32,796 nucleotides of DNA from the IMG/VR virus record IMGVR_UViG_3300021486_000035, positions 1-32,796 of that record; one strand, given 5' to 3'. This stretch comes from a virus. Of the stretch, positions 4,038-23,532 are shown piece after piece (the first letter of the stretch is position 1; each line of letters opens with the position of its first letter). The position numbers and the translations under genes are program-made. Under the pieces are notes generated by a model. The model made no database searches. It had not been told where the DNA came from and saw only the letters and a program-made list of their open reading frames with translations.

Positions 4038-5420
4038 TTAGAAAGAAGCATAAGATACATTTTTAAATTCCTGTTTATATGTTTTAATTCTCTTTCGTGC
4101 CTGGTAATATAATATGTTTTCTCCTTTGTCTTCAAAATCAAAAATAAGAGCTTTATTTTTTCCTATTCTTTTTCTTAGTACTCGTCCTACTCGTTGTACT
4201 GTTTTAACAGAACTTTTTCCAGACCCTAGAACGATTATTGCATCCATACTATGTAAATTAATACCTTCATTGAGAATTGTTGTGGATACTAAAACAGGAA
4301 TTTCACCGGCTTCAAAAGCAGCTAAAGCTTCTTTCCTTTTTTCAATTGGAGTTTCACCATGTATATATACATAATTAATGTTTAAATCCTTTAGTTTTTT
4401 TGATATTATTTCTCCATGTTTTAACCTTTCTAATGTAATTAGAACTTGTAAATTTCTTTCAACCAAAGATTTTGTAAGTAAAACAGCTATATTATTTCTT
4501 TTTTCATTCATAACTATTTGTTTTTCATATAATTCCATATAATTTTCTGTTTCTATTTTTTCTATTTTATTCCTTATAATAAAAATCGAAGGGGGAGTAG
4601 AAACCCCTAGATTAATCATTTCTTGTTGTGTCATTTTCACTAAAATATTTCCAAAAACAGCTTGAGTGTAAAAAACATCTACTTTATTTCTGTGTTTTGG
4701 TGTTCCTGATAATCCATATCTGTAATACATTTTAGCTCTTCCCATAAATTTTGAATATGAATTATGAGCCACCTTATGACATTCATCAAATATTACAATA
4801 TCAAAAGAATTATTTATTTTACTCATTTTTTCTGCATCTTTATAGTTCTTTGATAATGTTTGTATCATACCTATTGTAATATTTTTAATATCAAACTTAC
4901 CTAAACCAATAACTCCAGGCTCAAAGTTAAATAAAGAAACCATTTTCTTTCCAGTTTGAATTAACAAATCTTTTGTATGTGTTATCCAAAGAGTACGTAA
5001 TTTTAATGAAGAAATTAATTTTAATGCTATATAAGTTTTTCCTGCATTTACAGGAAGCCATATGATACCACTTTCTTTTTTTAATATTTCTTTTAAAGCT
5101 TTCTTTTGATATGGTCGTAATTCAATAGAATCTGTTAATTCTATTTTTTTAGTTGGAATCTTTCGTTTATCAATTATTTCATATTTAATGTTCGTGTTTT
5201 TACATAATTTTATAATATAATCATAAAAACCGGGAAAAGTTGTATGTGTTCTTAAATTATATAATCTATGAAAACCATCCCATTTTTTTAGTTGATAACT
5301 TTTCATAAATTTTGCATTAGGATTTTTAACTGACAATTTATCATATAACAAAAGTTCAAATGATGAATTTCCTTCTAAACGTATAACATTTTCATACCTA
5401 TATATTTTTAATATCCCCAC
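4038..5420 (-). CDS. uvsW: UvsW-like superfamily 2 DNA helicase
   Basis: This 460-aa protein carries superfamily 2 helicase motifs: PVNAGKT (motif I, 123-129), DECH (motif II, 212-215), SGTP (motif III, 238-241) and QRVGRVLR (motif VI, 409-416). The first 70 residues match the special N-terminal domain of T4 UvsW, including the KWDGFHRLYN segment that parallels NWDGRIRLLD. UvsW unwinds branched DNA and R-loops and helps switch replication to the recombination-dependent mode. The start is a GTG at 5420. The nearest AGGAGGAATT is about 12 bases upstream, slightly far, but an upstream shift is limited and the next ATG would cut the N-terminal domain. It overlaps the preceding sigma-like gene by 23 bases in another frame. 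Confidence 0.88.
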   Translation of the reverse strand: MGILKIYRYENVIRLEGNSSFELLLYDKLSVKNPNAKFMKSYQLKKWDGFHRLYNLRTHTTFPGFYDYIIKLCKNTNIKYEIIDKRKIPTKKIELTDSIELRPYQKKALKEILKKESGIIWLPVNAGKTYIALKLISSLKLRTLWITHTKDLLIQTGKKMVSLFNFEPGVIGLGKFDIKNITIGMIQTLSKNYKDAEKMSKINNSFDIVIFDECHKVAHNSYSKFMGRAKMYYRYGLSGTPKHRNKVDVFYTQAVFGNILVKMTQQEMINLGVSTPPSIFIIRNKIEKIETENYMELYEKQIVMNEKRNNIAVLLTKSLVERNLQVLITLERLKHGEIISKKLKDLNINYVYIHGETPIEKRKEALAAFEAGEIPVLVSTTILNEGINLHSMDAIIVLGSGKSSVKTVQRVGRVLRKRIGKNKALIFDFEDKGENILYYQARKRIKTYKQEFKNVSYASF

Positions 5421-5892
5421 AATTTTTTAATTCCTCCTCATAAATATTTTTTATCATACGTTTTACTCTTCTAATCCAGCTATAAACTGTAGATATAGAC
5501 ACTTTATATTCCATAGCTATTTGTTTTATGTCTTTTTTGTTTGTCCATATCTCATATACAACAGTAAAATATTTATCTTCTATTTTAATTTCATCTTTTT
5601 GTTGTTCTTTTTCTGAATATTGTTCTATATCATGCTCTTCCATCAATACTTCAGAAGGAAATAACTTTTTTAAAACATTTGGGATTAAAATATAAAGCAT
5701 CACAAAAAATAATTCAGGGTTTAAAATGTAATTTACATTATTAAATCTTGGTTGTTTTGTTTGAAAATAAAGTTCTGATACTAAATCTTCAAAATCATAT
5801 TTACTAAGATAAATTTTGTGTTTTTTTAACCAACTTTTACAAACTGCCGGAATAAATTCAAAATATAAAGTTACGTCATAGTTGTCATACAT
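5398..5892 (-). CDS. Small sigma-70-like protein with C-terminal helix-turn-helix (candidate phage sigma factor)
   Basis: This 164-aa protein ends in a helix-turn-helix of the sigma region 4 type at about 119-147 (NKKDIKQIAMEYKVSISTVY then SWIRRVKRM). An earlier segment YDFEDLVSELYFQ (32-44) resembles the start of sigma region 2, and a hydrophobic helix follows at 60-78. The length is near that of T4 gp55, the late sigma factor, but the region 2 match is weak. If it is a sigma factor it could direct host RNA polymerase to the right-arm genes; it could instead be a regulator or DNA-binding protein with a sigma-like helix-turn-helix. An in-frame GTG at 5901 is possible, but AAGGTG at 5900-5905 overlaps it and is well placed for the ATG at 5892. 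Confidence 0.5.
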   Translation of the reverse strand: MYDNYDVTLYFEFIPAVCKSWLKKHKIYLSKYDFEDLVSELYFQTKQPRFNNVNYILNPELFFVMLYILIPNVLKKLFPSEVLMEEHDIEQYSEKEQQKDEIKIEDKYFTVVYEIWTNKKDIKQIAMEYKVSISTVYSWIRRVKRMIKNIYEEELKNCGDIKNI

Positions 5893-5912
5893 ATAAATCA
5901 CCTTACTTTATT

Positions 5913-6965
5913 TTATTTGGTAAAGAAATTATCTAAGTGATTCATAGGAACATAAAAATTTCTTATATCACTTTTGTATCTTCTGTAATAGAAAATAATA
6001 TCTGTTTTATCTTTATATCTTCGTAATTCTAGTACCAAACCTCCAATCGCAGGGGGATGTTTAAATCGTTCTAAATATTTTGTTATACCTTGAAAACTGC
6101 CAGGCATAACACCAATTCCTCCACGGAAATCTAAATCAACATCTATTTGATGATAATGTCCAAGTACAAACAAATCAAAACCTGAAACAAAATCAAAAGA
6201 ATTTTGCATATAATCTTGTAACCTATATCCCTTAACTTTTGTTAATCCTAATCGTCCATGTTGCATAATAATTCTAAAAGGACGATGATTTTCAGATTTT
6301 ATATCTATAATTGCCTTTTGTGTTGGTAAGTATATTAAATCTTTTCGTTCTCTTGCTATTGCTTTTAATATATCTGCACCTATACGTTGTAAGTCAGACA
6401 AATCGTGATTTCCCATTATTAATATTTGTTTCATGTCAGAATAATAAGGAAGTTGAGCAACTGCATAATTTACTCTATCATCAAAAGCAATATATTTTAT
6501 TTCATAAAGTTGCCCTCTATAAACATATCCATTACCGTCTGTAATATCTCCAGCAATAAACATGTATTTTACTCCCATTTCGTGTGCAAAAGCATAAAAA
6601 TCTTTTAATTCTTCCAGTTTTTCTTTTTTAGATCCCATATGATAATCAGCACTAATACCAATTCTAATCACATCTTCTGGAGTATCTATTTCATGAAATA
6701 AGGGTTGTCGTATTTTATGAAGGGAAAAAGAAGGATCTATTTCAGTTACTACTTTCTGATATCCATTTATAGCCATATCAACATCATCAAAAAGTTCCTC
6801 AAAATCTTCTTCTTTATTTATAAGTCTATAATATCTATTTTTAACGGATTTTGGGGTTCTTTTAAAACCAAATTCAGATAATCGTTCTGAAATAGTTGCA
6901 TAACTTAAACCTTTTTTTCTTAATCTTAAAATTAAAGAATCTTCATCTGTACTATATGGAAGCAT
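5913..6965 (-). CDS. SANT/Myb-like DNA-binding domain fused to a calcineurin-like metallophosphoesterase
   Basis: Residues 5-50 form a SANT/Myb-like helix-turn-helix (STDEDSLILRLRKKGLSY, then RTPKSVKNRYYRL). An acidic linker follows (about 52-70), then a metallophosphoesterase domain from residue 100 with DYH (107-109), GD (139-140), GNHD (185-188), a histidine at 236 (QHG) and GHYH (269-272). All expected metal ligands are present, so the enzyme looks active as a phosphodiesterase or nuclease. The N-terminal domain may bring it to specific DNA. It is distinct from the gp47-like gene, which has its own ATPase partner. A strong GGAGGGGGTG precedes the ATG at 6965, which directly abuts the stop of the upstream membrane-protein gene. 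The substrate is unknown. Confidence 0.75.
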   Translation of the reverse strand: MLPYSTDEDSLILRLRKKGLSYATISERLSEFGFKRTPKSVKNRYYRLINKEEDFEELFDDVDMAINGYQKVVTEIDPSFSLHKIRQPLFHEIDTPEDVIRIGISADYHMGSKKEKLEELKDFYAFAHEMGVKYMFIAGDITDGNGYVYRGQLYEIKYIAFDDRVNYAVAQLPYYSDMKQILIMGNHDLSDLQRIGADILKAIARERKDLIYLPTQKAIIDIKSENHRPFRIIMQHGRLGLTKVKGYRLQDYMQNSFDFVSGFDLFVLGHYHQIDVDLDFRGGIGVMPGSFQGITKYLERFKHPPAIGGLVLELRRYKDKTDIIFYYRRYKSDIRNFYVPMNHLDNFFTK

Positions 6966-8198: not shown

Positions 8199-9380
8199 TC
8201 ACTCCTTTACTAAATTTGTACTTATTATAGGTAAAATTTCACTCATATAATCATATACAAAAGGACTTTTTCTAATTTGATATCCAAAACCTAAATTTGA
8301 ATCCAAAAGAAACTTAATTTTCCTAAAGGCTTCATAAATAGTGTATTGTGATTCATTAGCTATTTCTTTTGCATATTTAATTTTTAATGTTTTAAATTTT
8401 CTTAACTGTAAAAAAGATGTATATGTATCCTTAAATAAACTTTTATAATATTTAAGTATTATTTCTTGATTAGCTATATCTGAATAAATATGATTCAACT
8501 TCTTAATTACTTTGCTTACTTCTTGTGCTTTATTTTGAATTTTAACTATATCTGTAAAAAGAAGCTCCCATAAATAATCAATTTTCAAATAAAAGATTTT
8601 TTTTGTAGGAGATTTACGAATAGTATCAGATAAAGCTCCATATTTTATTCTTTTAATATGATGACTTAATTCTATTTTATTTATAAAAATTTTTCCATTA
8701 ATTTTTACATAGTACGGAATTTTTAATTCTCTATATAAATCACCATATGTATTAAAGTTATAAATTTCTTTTAATTTTTTAGTTATAAGAGAAGGATTCT
8801 TAAAATAACTTTCAGGTGAAGAATATACCCATCTATATTTATTAATAGTTAGAAGTTTTGCTTTGTGCAATAATTTTACTGGAATTTGGTATAAACCAAC
8901 AAAATCTAAAGGAACATAAAAATAAAAATTTCTGAAAAAAATAGTTTGTGGTTTGTTATTTATAATTACAGGAATATCTGGTTTATAAAACATTATTATT
9001 TTAGGCACAAGAATTGATGAATGAACAAGTGATGAAACAAAATAAGGATAAATAAACAAACTAATTTTCTCTTTTGTATAACCAAAGAGTTTTTTATAAA
9101 ATAAATTTAAAAATTTGAGAAAATCCTTTTTATCTACACCATAAACAATGGCTGCATAATTACTTTGCTCATCTAGTAATTTGTAAATATGTTTAATTTG
9201 ACCATAATTTATCAATTTTCCTTCTGCTGGGAATTTTGAAGTAATTAAATGCAAGTTAGAAAGAAACAATAATAATCGTTCTTGTATTTTGTTTAACTCA
9301 GAAGATGAACCTAATAATAAAATATTTTTTACTTCTTCAGGTTGCCTTTTCAATAGTTCTTTTAAAAAAGATTGTTTCAT
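8199..9380 (-). CDS. Hypothetical protein, 393 aa, first gene of the left arm
   Basis: No family is recognised. The protein is rich in Lys, Tyr, Phe and Ile and looks soluble. The N-terminal region has ILLLGSSSELNKIQE, a hydrophobic strand followed by a small-residue loop that only loosely recalls a nucleotide-binding turn (no GKT/S). The C-terminal third is helical (about 280-375). A strong AAAGGAGG precedes the ATG at 9380. As the first gene leftwards from the large non-coding region it is well placed to be expressed early or to act on that region, for example as an origin or control protein; this is inference from position only. Confidence 0.75.
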   Translation of the reverse strand: MKQSFLKELLKRQPEEVKNILLLGSSSELNKIQERLLLFLSNLHLITSKFPAEGKLINYGQIKHIYKLLDEQSNYAAIVYGVDKKDFLKFLNLFYKKLFGYTKEKISLFIYPYFVSSLVHSSILVPKIIMFYKPDIPVIINNKPQTIFFRNFYFYVPLDFVGLYQIPVKLLHKAKLLTINKYRWVYSSPESYFKNPSLITKKLKEIYNFNTYGDLYRELKIPYYVKINGKIFINKIELSHHIKRIKYGALSDTIRKSPTKKIFYLKIDYLWELLFTDIVKIQNKAQEVSKVIKKLNHIYSDIANQEIILKYYKSLFKDTYTSFLQLRKFKTLKIKYAKEIANESQYTIYEAFRKIKFLLDSNLGFGYQIRKSPFVYDYMSEILPIISTNLVKE

Positions 9381-9574
9381 GTATAAACCTCCTTTATTAT
9401 TTGACTCTTGATATAGAATATTTGTTTAATTTCTTTATTTTCCTTATCAATACAAGTATACATGAAAAAGAGCATGATATATTAAGGAAAAGTAACAATT
9501 TCTTTATTATTATATTATAATTAGAATGGCTAAAACTTGCTTATAAAAAGGATTACAAAAATTAGATTTTTGAG

Positions 9575-9592
9575 TTGTTCCCTAAAAACAGT
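9575..9592 (-). repeat. Control-region motif copy 1 (minus orientation)
   Basis: TTGTTCCCTAAAAACAGT on the plus strand, reading ACTGTTTTTAGGGAACAA on the minus. It is an exact 18-base direct repeat of the copy at 10963-10980, 1388 bases away. Confidence 0.8.
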
Positions 9593-9700
9593 TTTTTTAT
9601 TAAGCTAAATTTTCGTCCACATTACATTGAATTTAATATTGACATTAATTCTCAATAAGAAAAATTTTTAATTTGGAGTTTTTTTGTCAGAATTACTTAA

Positions 9701-9718
9701 TTCAGTCGAATGACTGAA
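9701..9718. repeat. Perfect inverted repeat, possible operator or hairpin
   Basis: TTCAGTC and GACTGAA are separated by GAAT. It is a perfect 7-bp dyad near the left part of the control region. No T-run follows on either strand, so it does not look like a terminator; it could be a regulator-binding site. Confidence 0.4.
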
Positions 9719-9780
9719 AAATAGAAAAACGGAAAAGGGCTATATAAAAGAAGTTTAAAACATTGAAATTTTTCAAAAAT

Positions 9781-9850
9781 GGTTTTAAATCTCTATTGAA
9801 AGCAATCTATAAGCCAATTTCCTTAATTTGTTATGTATCTGGGGAACGAC
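9781..9850 (+). repeat. Extended control-region element A
   Basis: A 70-base element starting GGTTTTAAATCT and ending with the motif TTATGTATCTGGGGAACGA (9831-9849). It aligns without gaps to element C (10325-10394), 42 of 70 identical by hand count, concentrated in the first 20 and last 20 bases. A small ATTG-AAAG-CAAT hairpin lies at the same place as a stronger hairpin in C. A TTGTTAACAA palindrome follows at 9852-9861. Confidence 0.6.
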
Positions 9851-10007
9851 CTTGTTAACAATTGCTGTGTTTAGGATAAAAAGGGAATCACAAAGATTTG
9901 AAATTTAGCAAAAAATTAGAAAGTAAGGAAAGCTTACCAAAAACATGTTTTTTGGCTTAGTTTATAAATGTTGCAAATTAGCTTCAGTAGAGAAAAACAA
10001 ATTGTTA

Positions 10008-10026
10008 CTATGTTTATGGGGAACGA
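10008..10026 (+). repeat. Control-region motif copy B
   Basis: CTATGTTTATGGGGAACGA, differing from copy C at only two positions. The upstream 50 bases are less similar to elements A and C, though a CAAATTAGCTTCAG stretch recalls the CAAAGCAGCTTTTG of C. The sequence 25-60 bases downstream is loosely similar to that after A. Confidence 0.65.
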
Positions 10027-10324
10027 GTTATGTAAATGGCTCTGGAACAAAAAAAGTGAATACGACTTTGTGAAATTTTCTTTGAGAAAAAAATAACAAT
10101 GTGAATTAACTCTTTTGCATAAAATTATTAATATTTATGTAAAATTCATATGAGATAGAATAGTAGCAGGATATGACCATAATTCTTTCTTTATTAGGTT
10201 GTATTTTGTTAATAATATAATACACAAAATAAAACTTAATGTAAATATGGGGGTTTGAGGGTCGTTTACATAATATTAACACAAAATGCTGAAACTCTTT
10301 CTACTAAAGCCTTTTAGGCATTTG

Positions 10325-10394
10325 GGTTTTAAATCTATATCAAAGCAGCTTTTGATGAGACATTTAGGCATCTACTATGTTTTTAGGGAACGAG
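10325..10394 (+). repeat. Extended control-region element C
   Basis: Starts GGTTTTAAATCT and ends with the motif CTATGTTTTTAGGGAACGA (10375-10393). It contains a hairpin TCAAAG-CAGC-TTTTGA. The 9-mer TTTAGGCAT occurs just before it and again inside it. A terminator-like hairpin starts 8 bases after the end, which suggests that this copy may be the end of a short transcript. Confidence 0.6.
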
Positions 10395-10401
10395 AGCATT
10401 C

Positions 10402-10435
10402 AAAGAGGCTAAAAAAGCCAACTTTTTATTTTTGT
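10402..10435 (+). terminator. Possible Rho-independent terminator in the control region
   Basis: GGCT-AAAAA-AGCC (10407-10419), extended by AAAG/CTTT pairing across a small internal loop, is followed by TTATTTTTG. It reads on the plus strand just after element C. The stem is short, so efficiency is uncertain. Confidence 0.4.
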
Positions 10436-10962
10436 TCATATTGGAGCAATAAAATAGTAATAAAAAAAAGAGTATTTTTTTGCTTTTAGAGTAAAAAACA
10501 TAAAATTAATACAAAAAGAGAATGCTGAATGTTATCACAATGTTAGCAAATATTACAGCTTCATTACAAGAGGAGAATAAACATCGCAAATCTGCATTTT
10601 TTTGTAAAAGAATAAAATTAAGCAAATGTAACATTTCCTTCTTTTGAAACCTTTTGTGTTTCTAATATATTACTATTTAATATGATTCTACGGTTATAAA
10701 ATTTATAAATCTGTGAATCTATTAGCTAATTACAGGTCGATTTTACATTTGTAATATTTAAATTTTAGTATTATATATTTATATATAAGTACTAAAGTAC
10801 ATAAGATCTACTGGAAAACAGGTGGATTTTAGCAAATTCTTTTATAGAAAGAATTATAAACGATTTAAAACTTTATAGAAAAAGAATGTAAATAGTTAAT
10901 TTTTTTTATTTTCAAACTTGAGTTCCCTTATATTAGCTGCTTTCAAATGAAAAAACAGTAAA

Positions 10963-10980
10963 TTGTTCCCTAAAAACAGT
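10963..10980 (-). repeat. Control-region motif copy 5 (minus orientation)
   Basis: Exact match to the copy at 9575-9592. A partial sixth copy (AGTTCCCTTA, 10921-10930) lies about 40 bases to its left next to AGCTGCTTTC, the complement of the GAAAGCAGC-like box found in element C. The copy lies about 175 bases before the small terminase start. Confidence 0.75.
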
Positions 10981-11153
10981 CAAAATTTACAGAAACCTTA
11001 TTATAAGTAAGTTTTACACAATTTATAAAATTTTGTATATTAAAAAAGTAATACATTTAATAATATTGTTACAATAAATTTACATTTTCTTCACTAAAAA
11101 AAGGTATTTTTTGACCCGTATATATATGAGAGGGAAAAAAAGGAGGTTTTCGT

Positions 11154-11639
11154 ATGACAAGTACTTTATCTTTAATGAATTATTATAAAATTGCTTTATT
11201 ACGTGCCCTTGATATTCCTAAATCTAAAATAATAGAACAGGTTGGTATAACAGAAAAGGTTTATGATATTTTATTAATGGATGAAAATTTTAATAAAGCA
11301 GTATCTGTTTTTAAGGAAGAATTAAATTCAGATTTATATAATGCTTTATATAAAGATAAAAGTTCTTTAGATTTTGTTATAAAAAAGAAAATGGTTAATT
11401 TGATTTTAATTGCAGAAAAAGAAGCAGATTTTTTACGTTCTTATATTATGGAACATACTAATGATTTTAATGCTAAGGAATTATCTATGTTGATTTCTAC
11501 ATTAACTAAGATAACTAATTTACTTAGAAATTTATTACGTGATTTGTCAACTGTAACTAACGAAAAAGGCAAACAAAAAAAGGAGGAAATATCTAATATT
11601 GTTCGTAATTTGAAGGAGTCGGAGTCAAATGAAAAATAA
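11154..11639 (+). CDS. terS: Small terminase subunit (putative)
   Basis: This 161-aa protein is the first gene of the late arm and lies just ahead of the large terminase, the usual place of the small subunit that recognises phage DNA for packaging. The N-terminal 50 residues read as a helix-turn-helix (YYKIALLRALDIPKSKIIEQ followed by VGITEKVYDILLMDENF), in the style of small terminases. The central part is helical and would form the ring, and the C-terminus is charged. A perfect AGGAGG is placed 8 bases before the ATG. The family is not certain from sequence alone; order and the helix-turn-helix carry the call. Confidence 0.55.
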   Translation: MTSTLSLMNYYKIALLRALDIPKSKIIEQVGITEKVYDILLMDENFNKAVSVFKEELNSDLYNALYKDKSSLDFVIKKKMVNLILIAEKEADFLRSYIMEHTNDFNAKELSMLISTLTKITNLLRNLLRDLSTVTNEKGKQKKEEISNIVRNLKESESNEK

Positions 11640-20911: not shown

Positions 20912-22177
20912 ATGGGAAATTTTGTAATAGGGGGAGGCTCTAAGGTAATTTTACAGCAAGAAACAGGTACAAAATACGTAGTGCCTTTTACTTCTGAATC
21001 TGTAAATCCTAGTGCTGAATTTATAAATTCAAATGCTATTGTAAGTAATAGAGCTAAAGGTATAGGGCAGAAAGGTAATGTTGCAGGAGATGGAAACTTT
21101 GATTTTGAGTTTTCACATAAGTATTTACCATACTATTTTTTGGGGGTTTTAGGAGCTAAAGATGCTTCAAAACCTGTAATTTATCCATCCCCAGATTATT
21201 TATTTGATTATAATGTTTTTGTAGAACATGGAAGTGCAGCTTCTTTGAGGATGGAAGCAAGAAGGGTGAAATTTAATTCATTAAGAGTTTCTTTTGCTTC
21301 TGATGGAGTTATGTCAGGAACGGTTGATTTTGCAGGTTTGAAATATGTTAACGCTTCAGGAACATTAAGCGGAACAACTGCATTTGCTGATTCTGCGAAC
21401 TTTATTTTTCCTCAGAAGTTGGCTGCAATAAATAAAATAATAACAGAAAGCGATCCTATTGAAACAACTGATTGGGATGCAGGAATTGATATGATTCCTT
21501 ATTTGAACTCAATAGAGTTTACAATTGCAAATAATTTAAGTACAGATTTGAACAAATTAGATGCTTCAGGAAGAATGGCAGTTACAGGGGGGGAATTTGC
21601 TGTTACAGGTACTATTGAAATTGTTTTGGATGATGAAGATACTTTAGGTATAGGAGCTGCTGATATTGGAACAAATTGGAAAGCAATAGCTATAAAAGTT
21701 GCAGATTCTAGTGGTTCTACATATCATTATATTGTGTTGAGAAATATTTATTTTACATCTTTAACTCATGATATATCAGATCGTGGTGCTATTACTATTT
21801 CGGCTGATTTCCAATGTGTTTATAATGCTTCTGATACGGCAAAGGTTCTTGATGGAACTACTGTTACCGGAGCACAACCTATAGTTGTAGCTTATGATGA
21901 AAGTAGCACAATAACATTGCTTACAGTACGAAATACAGTAGATGATGAAGTGCCAACGGGGGATATTGATGGTAGTAATAAAACTTTTACTCTTGCGTAC
22001 ACTCCAATAAAAGAGGGGTCTGTTGTTATAACAGTTAATTCTACTACAATTAAAGATTTGGGTTATGGTGTTTTGTCTGATGGAGGAACAATAAATTATG
22101 AAACTGGTGTATTTGTGTTGAATGAAGCTCCTGCGGGAGGTTCAACAGTAACAGTTGATTACATTTACTTTACATAA
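20912..22177 (+). CDS. Major tail tube protein, paralog 1, with C-terminal added domain
   Basis: This 421-aa protein resembles large phage tail tube proteins: VPFTSESVNPSAEFINSN near 24-41, GNVAGDGNFDFEF, LNSIEFTIANNLSTDLNKL, VTGGEFAVTGTIEI and a final ISDRGAITISADF strand set. Residues about 345-421 form a separate beta domain (DGSNKTFTLAYTPIKEGSVV, then INYETGVFVLNEAPAGG), a common add-on on phage surface proteins, probably exposed on the tail. The tube core is shared with the next gene. AAGGAGGAA precedes the ATG. Copy number should be very high in the virion. Confidence 0.75.
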   Translation: MGNFVIGGGSKVILQQETGTKYVVPFTSESVNPSAEFINSNAIVSNRAKGIGQKGNVAGDGNFDFEFSHKYLPYYFLGVLGAKDASKPVIYPSPDYLFDYNVFVEHGSAASLRMEARRVKFNSLRVSFASDGVMSGTVDFAGLKYVNASGTLSGTTAFADSANFIFPQKLAAINKIITESDPIETTDWDAGIDMIPYLNSIEFTIANNLSTDLNKLDASGRMAVTGGEFAVTGTIEIVLDDEDTLGIGAADIGTNWKAIAIKVADSSGSTYHYIVLRNIYFTSLTHDISDRGAITISADFQCVYNASDTAKVLDGTTVTGAQPIVVAYDESSTITLLTVRNTVDDEVPTGDIDGSNKTFTLAYTPIKEGSVVITVNSTTIKDLGYGVLSDGGTINYETGVFVLNEAPAGGSTVTVDYIYFT

Positions 22178-22197
22178 TTAGAAGGGGGTGAATTAAT

Positions 22198-23532
22198 ATG
22201 AGAAATATAGTTACAGGTGGAGGTTCTAAATTAGCTTTAATATATCAAACCCCCGGAGAATTTGAGAAAGCATTATTGATTCTTGCCCAAGGTGGGAGTG
22301 CGTCCGATTACTTTTTTACGTTTGTGCCAGGGGAACAAGCTACAGAAAGTTTTGAAGTAACTGCTGGCGGTAATATTCAATTAAATGATCCGGGTGATGG
22401 GTGTCATTTTAAATTTATAGTTGCCTCTAATAGTTCAGACACATCTTCAGACGGAGTTTTGGCTGTTGAGGGTCAAGATTATAGTTTGTATTGGGATAAT
22501 GTTGCTTCAAAATACATTTTAACTAATTTAGCAAGTACAACAAAGTATTTCTTTGTATATTACACTTTTTGTAATGATGCTTTTGAATTGCCTTTTACTT
22601 CTGAGTCTTTAAATCCTTCGGGAGCATTTGTAAATTCAAATTCTTTATCTTCGTCTAGAATTAAAGGAGTTGGAGAGGCTGGAAATAAGGCTGCTGATGG
22701 TAATTTTGATACAGAACTTGATTTTATTGCTATTCCTTGGTTATTTTATACAGTCTTAGGAAAAATGGATTTAGCTAAAACAACAACATATAATGTTAAA
22801 ATTACTCGTTCAAATAGTTTTTTGCCTGTTTTTAATGTTTTTGTAAGTCATGGGGGTTCTCTTAATACTGTTTTTAAAAATTGTAAGGCTAATTCATTAA
22901 GATTTTCAATGGCTTCTGATGCTATTGCAGGAATCACATTAGATGTGATAGGCATGCAGTATTTGACGGGTTCATATCCATCTTCTTTATCTAGAGATTT
23001 GGGTAGTGTAACTCCATCCTTTATATTTCCAGGAAAGTTTAGTGATACATCATTAATAACAATTAATTATGCTTCAGACGATGTTTCAATTTCAATTGGA
23101 GATTATTTATCCTCGTTAGAATTTACAATAAGCAATAATTTAGGTACTGATTTGTATAAAATTGCTGGCGATCAGAGAATTGCTGTGCCAGAAGGAGAAT
23201 TTGCAATTTCTGGTACTATTGAGTTCTTAATTCCTATAGGAGATGTTGTAGGGGATAATCATGTTCTTGTAAAAGATATTTTCTTGTCATTAGATGTAGG
23301 TTCTTTAATTCCAGAGTTATTGTTGATATATACGGCTTTGCCTAAGATATTTAGAATAATAATGAATAATCTTCAGGTTACTGGTGTATCTCATGATATT
23401 TCTGATAGAGGAATTTTGAAATTGAGTGTTGATTTTGTTGGATATGATGATGGAGTTAATGAAATGATAACGGTTGAAGCTGATATTAATAGTTCTTCTT
23501 TTATTAAACCTTTTGTTCCAACAAGTTCATAA
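22198..23532 (+). CDS. Tail tube protein, paralog 2, with N-terminal inserted domain
   Basis: This 444-aa protein is a clear paralog of the preceding gene: both begin with a GGGSK segment at residues 7-11 and share ELPFTSESLNPSGAFVNSN (130-148 here), a GNKAADGNFDTEL block, a SLEFTISNNLGTDLYKI block, a GEFAISGTIEF block and a HDISDRG block. It differs by about 112 extra residues (17-128) inserted after GGGSKLAL and by lacking the C-terminal domain of paralog 1. It could be a minor tube component, a tube-end protein or a decorated tube subunit. GAAGGGGGTGA precedes the ATG. Confidence 0.7.
   Translation: MRNIVTGGGSKLALIYQTPGEFEKALLILAQGGSASDYFFTFVPGEQATESFEVTAGGNIQLNDPGDGCHFKFIVASNSSDTSSDGVLAVEGQDYSLYWDNVASKYILTNLASTTKYFFVYYTFCNDAFELPFTSESLNPSGAFVNSNSLSSSRIKGVGEAGNKAADGNFDTELDFIAIPWLFYTVLGKMDLAKTTTYNVKITRSNSFLPVFNVFVSHGGSLNTVFKNCKANSLRFSMASDAIAGITLDVIGMQYLTGSYPSSLSRDLGSVTPSFIFPGKFSDTSLITINYASDDVSISIGDYLSSLEFTISNNLGTDLYKIAGDQRIAVPEGEFAISGTIEFLIPIGDVVGDNHVLVKDIFLSLDVGSLIPELLLIYTALPKIFRIIMNNLQVTGVSHDISDRGILKLSVDFVGYDDGVNEMITVEADINSSSFIKPFVPTSS

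Follow-up and report, generated by a model that had tools for sequence, protein, structure and literature searches.

A gene-free junction between divergent gene arms as a candidate control and replication-start region of an undescribed phage lineage

The IMG/VR virus record IMGVR_UViG_3300021486_000035 (32,796 bases from an uncultured tailed phage, AT-rich at about 28% GC; here called the window, in whose positions coordinates are given) contains a 1.77-kb region without genes, in which we found five copies of a repeated motif, approximately TGTTTWTRGGGAACRA. The window and its relatives form an undescribed phage lineage, and the junction between the divergent gene arms is its probable control centre. 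In appearance the region belongs to a known kind: rapidly evolving, for control and, possibly, for the start of replication. Our preferred explanation, which we hold tentatively, is that its inner segment combines control of early and late genes with what may be an origin of replication.

As the original prediction for this region had claimed, it is gene-free within a gene-packed genome. No open reading frame (ORF) longer than 67 amino acids lies inside it (one of 71 amino acids overlaps its left edge), and its best 60-codon stretch scores -0.06 per codon, below the phage's own genes (median 0.45, 5th percentile 0.17). The remaining gaps of the record total 517 bp, and the region is almost ten times the biggest of them (187 bp). 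Two short ORFs considered as genes, 10106-10282 and 10286-10489, were rejected for want of coding signal; the latter also has no visible ribosome-binding site. A tRNA scan of the region found none, an Rfam scan gave no match at gathering thresholds and only weak, chance-level matches when run loosely, and a DNA search with the region against 50,697 phage records returned no match.

9381..11153, no strand: gene-free region of 1,773 bp, between a leftward arm (gene for a 393-amino-acid protein first) and a rightward arm (terS, 161 amino acids, first)

The placement of the region next to terS, where early-type and late arms diverge, is likewise borne out by gene content, which is also the basis on which we assign the timing of the arms. 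Left of 9380, the minus-strand arm encodes an SbcC-like protein (start only), SbcD, a UvsX-like recombinase, a DNA helicase, a sigma-like protein and a metallophosphoesterase with a Myb-like domain; right of 11154, the plus-strand arm encodes terminase, head and tail proteins.

The five copies of the motif (15-18 bases; three on the plus strand, two on the minus) lie 177 to about 580 nt apart in two orientations. TGTTTWTRGGGAACRA, with variants, is a better consensus than the one first proposed, which fits no copy exactly and has two to three mismatches in three copies and more in the other two. All copies were found within 2 nt of their predicted positions, with the plus-strand starts corrected to 9829, 10006 and 10373; a supposed partial copy at 10921 has only GGGAAC in common with the motif. 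The two minus-strand copies (9575-9592 and 10963-10980) are identical at 18 of 18 nt, and, compared with the reference copy over 22 nt, the other plus-strand copies show 77% and 91% identity.

9575..9593, minus: motif copy 1 (CTGTTTTTAGGGAACAA)
9829..9850, plus: motif copy 2 (ATGTATCTGGGGAACGA)
10006..10027, plus: motif copy 3 (ATGTTTATGGGGAACGA)
10373..10394, plus: motif copy 4 (ATGTTTTTAGGGAACGA)
10963..10981, minus: motif copy 5 (CTGTTTTTAGGGAACAA)
9781..9806, plus: block GGTTTTAAATCT...AAAGCA on the upstream side of copy 2, 61 nt ahead of its GGGAAC; borderline significance
10325..10349, plus: block GGTTTTAAATCT...AAAGCA on the upstream side of copy 4, 61 nt ahead of its GGGAAC; borderline significance
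10741..10860, plus: three adjacent hairpins; G-U pairs favour the plus strand as RNA (z about -5)

This family is non-random and confined to the region, as had been proposed. A position weight matrix (PWM) built from those same five copies gives them 24.8-25.9 bits and no other place in the record more than 16.8 bits, so the next best place is 8 bits lower. The core GGGAACRA occurs six times in the record, five of them in the region, against 0.86 occurrences expected in the whole record. A test independent of the motif (16-mer families with up to 4 mismatches and at least 5 G/C in the reference) gave a largest family of eight members; 1 of 150 shuffles reached seven and none reached eight. A block similar to the two flank blocks lies about 60 nt upstream of the remaining plus-strand copy (copy 3), and the 20-nt window score of this flank signal is 24.8, with 99% of random anchors at or below 24.5. 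Scanning IMG/VR with TGTTTTTAGGGAACRA returned 45 stretches, none with a second copy and, apart from one generic RecA match, none from a relative.

Comparison with related phages separates the junction from its contents. Two-sequence and three-sequence alignments recovered three diverged relatives that single-protein searches had not found: G001 (17.3 kb), G002 (32.7 kb) and G003 (55.7 kb), whose terminases are 44-47% and major head proteins 44-57% identical to those of the window. A fourth relative, L129, covers only 3 kb upstream of the head protein gene and, if gene order holds, is therefore too short to reach the junction. A genome collection yielded one remote terminase only (24%). We found no close relatives of the window, although the collections may omit records very near it. 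G003 corresponds to almost the whole window gene by gene, and also carries PolA, a DnaB-like helicase and a primase-like protein.

A gene-free divergent junction occurs at the same point in G002 (1.0 kb) and G003 (0.53 kb). In G001 the genes before terS are co-directional, and two tRNA genes are followed by a gap of 178 bp. The junction itself is thus conserved in two of the three relatives, unlike the motif: the PWM search found the GGGAAC motif in none of the three. Judged by the refuting condition of the original prediction, lack of conservation in related phages, this outcome goes against the motif as a conserved element. Terminase, portal-position and head proteins are 36-57% identical, while the junction interiors are unalignable beyond short blocks; the four genomes are too far apart for single sites to be traced across the lineage. 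A strong mid-junction hairpin is present in all three junctions (also G002 4742-4861 and G003 22103-22242), with z of -5.0 to -5.9 against a lowest value of -4.85 among 170 coding windows, but with several overlapping windows tried, the significance of this common feature is borderline. A long AT-rich palindrome, CCCTCCAAAATTTAT...ATAAATTTTGGAGGG, lies midway along the G003 junction (L113 9150-9243).

Promoter-like elements were found at the two edges of the region.

11108..11131, plus: candidate late promoter; conserved element TTTTTGACCCGTATATATATGAGA, present once, immediately before the ribosome-binding site of terS
11045..11087, plus: GTTACAA...AATTTACATTT block, upstream of the late element, common to G002 and the window
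9451..9470, minus: candidate early promoter, read by eye; a -10-like TATACT site directed at the left arm, its hexamer at about 9455
5398..5901, minus: sigma-like protein, whose counterpart in G003 scores above the Pfam cut-off for sigma-70 region 4

The right-edge element, TTTTTkwssCGTATwwwwRTGrrA, has one copy directly before terS in each of the four genomes (the window and G001-G003). It ranks first in every genome when that genome's own site is left out of the matrix, at 16.6-27.8 bits compared with 11.5-13.4 bits for the runner-up. It has no -35 box. This element is probably the late promoter, and the sigma-like protein could be its reader. A scan with the element recovered only G001, G002 and four unrelated matches in contigs without a homologue of the window. 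The GTTACAA block is identical at 34 of 43 positions between the window and G002 (E 3e-05 between the two regions). At the left edge, G002 and G003 likewise have TATACT upstream of their left gene, one such site per junction; a promoter scan of the region remained at background level.

All five motif copies lie between TATACT and the late element at 11108, and so outside both predicted outward transcripts. Because of this position, and because the copies share no RNA fold, the simplest reading is that they act as DNA; most likely they are protein-binding sites. We hypothesize that a host-type TATACT promoter would fire the replication-type arm leftward, whereas the single conserved, phage-specific element would start the late operon rightward. 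The inner segment would hold dispersed, directional TGTTTWTRGGGAACRA sites for one sequence-specific DNA-binding protein, together with the strong hairpin block, and both the sites and their binding protein would change fast between lineages. An origin combined with control is favoured by the persistence of a gene-free junction while its interior is rewritten, as in the origins of Ceduovirus phages (PMC7150918), and by the replication and recombination genes of the left arm.

Several observations weigh against this explanation. The sites are dispersed in two orientations and form no tandem iteron array, so the earlier suggestion of an origin with iterons keeps its origin as a possibility and loses its iterons. 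The generic 16-mer family test on G002 and G003 found no family exceeding shuffles, although G003 does contain three copies of TACTGCAAA, a weaker family at a level that no shuffle reached; repeated sites are therefore not established as a shared trait of the junction. The late element and the ribosome-binding site of terS overlap in G003, leaving a promoter little room. The GC-skew check that had been proposed does place a switch near the junction; the cumulative minimum falls at 8744 in the window, inside the gene for the 393-amino-acid protein (in G002 and G003 it falls inside the junction). Because skew follows gene direction, we did not use it as evidence for an origin. No initiator protein was identified; the protein at the left flank has counterparts at the same place in G002 (387 amino acids, L051 2881-4044, minus) and G003 (367 amino acids, L113 7801-8904, minus), but no similarity among the three was detectable and none belongs to a known family. 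Structure predictions for it reached a mean pLDDT (predicted local distance difference test score) of 37 for the window protein, with a three-row alignment, and 33 for the G003 protein, run as a single sequence, and were unusable for a fold search.

8199..9380, minus: left-flank protein, 393 amino acids, no known family
11154..11639, plus: small terminase-like protein (TerS), 161 amino acids, 32% and 27% identical to its G002 and G003 counterparts; named for its position before the large subunit

The closest competitor, which we consider possible but distinctly less probable than an origin with control, is that a phage regulator uses the copies as operators for the early/late switch, repressing early or activating late transcription, outside any origin. 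The copies lie between two divergent promoter-like sites, that at 9575 is about 125 nt upstream of TATACT, the core TGTT...AACA forms an imperfect dyad, and the GTTACAA...TTTACATTT block just upstream of the late element is operator-like as well. Set against this, copies lie up to 1.5 kb from the promoter that they would control, 1.77 kb far exceeds the needs of a switch, and relatives with the same late element have no conserved counterpart. Binding sites for the small terminase, in a pac or cos-type packaging recognition region, are unlikely. Packaging sites often hold several directional sub-sites near terS. Here terS adjoins the region, and TerS proteins are strongly diverged (27-32%), as are the sites. 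The copies nevertheless span 1.4 kb in both orientations and reach up to 1.6 kb from terS; G001, with its 178 bp between tRNA genes and terS, has no repeats that we could find around terS; and all four contigs read through the junction, where a cos end would tend to break them. The packaging site raised in the original prediction is a rival of low probability.

We give a similarly low probability to the view that the region encodes at least one structured non-coding RNA of which the motif is part. The plus strand folds strongly at 10741-10860, and more weakly on the minus strand; the flank block keeps a constant distance of 61 nt in two copies; and stem-loops occur near some plus-strand copies. 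But that structured block contains no motif copy, and the stem-loops after copies are no better than shuffles. RNA genes, which the original prediction had also entertained, are weakened by the lack of an Rfam match and of any notable consensus fold of the five copies. Least probable of all is that the copies are promoters, whether read by a sigma factor of the phage, as the original prediction had proposed, or by an RNA polymerase of the phage. The phage does encode a sigma-like protein, and a directional motif ending in GGGAAC recalls the start sites of single-subunit polymerases or the -35 boxes of extracytoplasmic function (ECF) sigma factors. The ECF reading was rejected as there is no fixed -10, and no common second box follows the copies at a fixed downstream distance. 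Transcription from the copy at 10963 would run counter to that from the three plus-strand copies, no copies precede other transcription units in the record, and no RNA polymerase is among the proteins examined of G003 (55.7 kb, incomplete). Phage-sigma promoters are weakened because a different element, conserved in four genomes, occupies the place expected of the late promoter before terS.

The original prediction held the region to be unlike known phage control elements. This is too strong, because its layout has a close parallel in the origin region of the lactococcal Ceduovirus phages (c2/bIL67-type). Those origins lie between divergent early and late blocks, contain no ORFs, are flanked by two early promoters (PE1 and PE2), can replicate plasmids without phage proteins, and fall into types without mutual sequence similarity in otherwise related phages (PMC7150918). 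The region of the window is likewise non-coding, ORF-less and placed between divergent early and late blocks, and its sequence differs between related phages while the flanks stay related. It differs in carrying a dispersed five-copy family of sites and in belonging to a separate lineage, and here the origin is only a candidate. Iteron-type origins also have repeated sites within a non-coding region, but theirs are closely spaced direct repeats, usually phased in tandem, whereas the sites of the window are 15-18 bp long, hundreds of bp apart and in both orientations. For the RepA of PLE, origin and initiator DNA-binding domain co-vary between types (PMC8263062). The stoperators of cluster A mycobacteriophages, more than 20 sites spread over the genome in step with transcription and bound by the phage repressor (PMC9283540), are, like cluster A operators, short and asymmetric, with an orientation that may be meaningful here too; the five copies of the window differ in all lying in one region, with one copy opposing others.

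That the region represents a new type of phage origin and switch, in which dispersed sites in two orientations and their cognate protein are exchanged or rewritten between lineages while the late element is kept, seems to us rather unlikely; the cognate protein would then possibly be the left-flank protein of 367-393 amino acids. For the lineage, the analysis supplies two concrete elements. One is the conserved candidate late element, present once and possibly read with help of the sigma-like protein of the phage; the other is a private family of putative recognition sites. The analysis also adds another case, as in Ceduovirus origins, of a junction kept non-coding in place with its content almost completely changed, and knowing what drives this turnover would be relevant to the diversification of phage origins and regulators.

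Other features were seen in these genomes. The metallophosphoesterase with an N-terminal Myb-like domain (window 5913-6965, minus) has a sole match in phage records, to Halorubrum tailed virus BLv36 (33% identity, with 60% of the protein covered). In the window, two adjacent genes at 20912-22177 and 22198-23532 (plus) belong to the minor tail protein family phrog_290 and are apparently a duplication; G001 and G002 each have two matching places as well. The G003 DNA polymerase A (L117 9517-11874, plus) has an N-terminal match to the uracil-DNA glycosylase superfamily (Pfam UDG, E 6e-08). Just before the two tRNA genes and terS, G001 encodes a 728-amino-acid protein (L120 1372-3558, plus) that consists largely of RCC1-like repeats and looks unusual for a phage.
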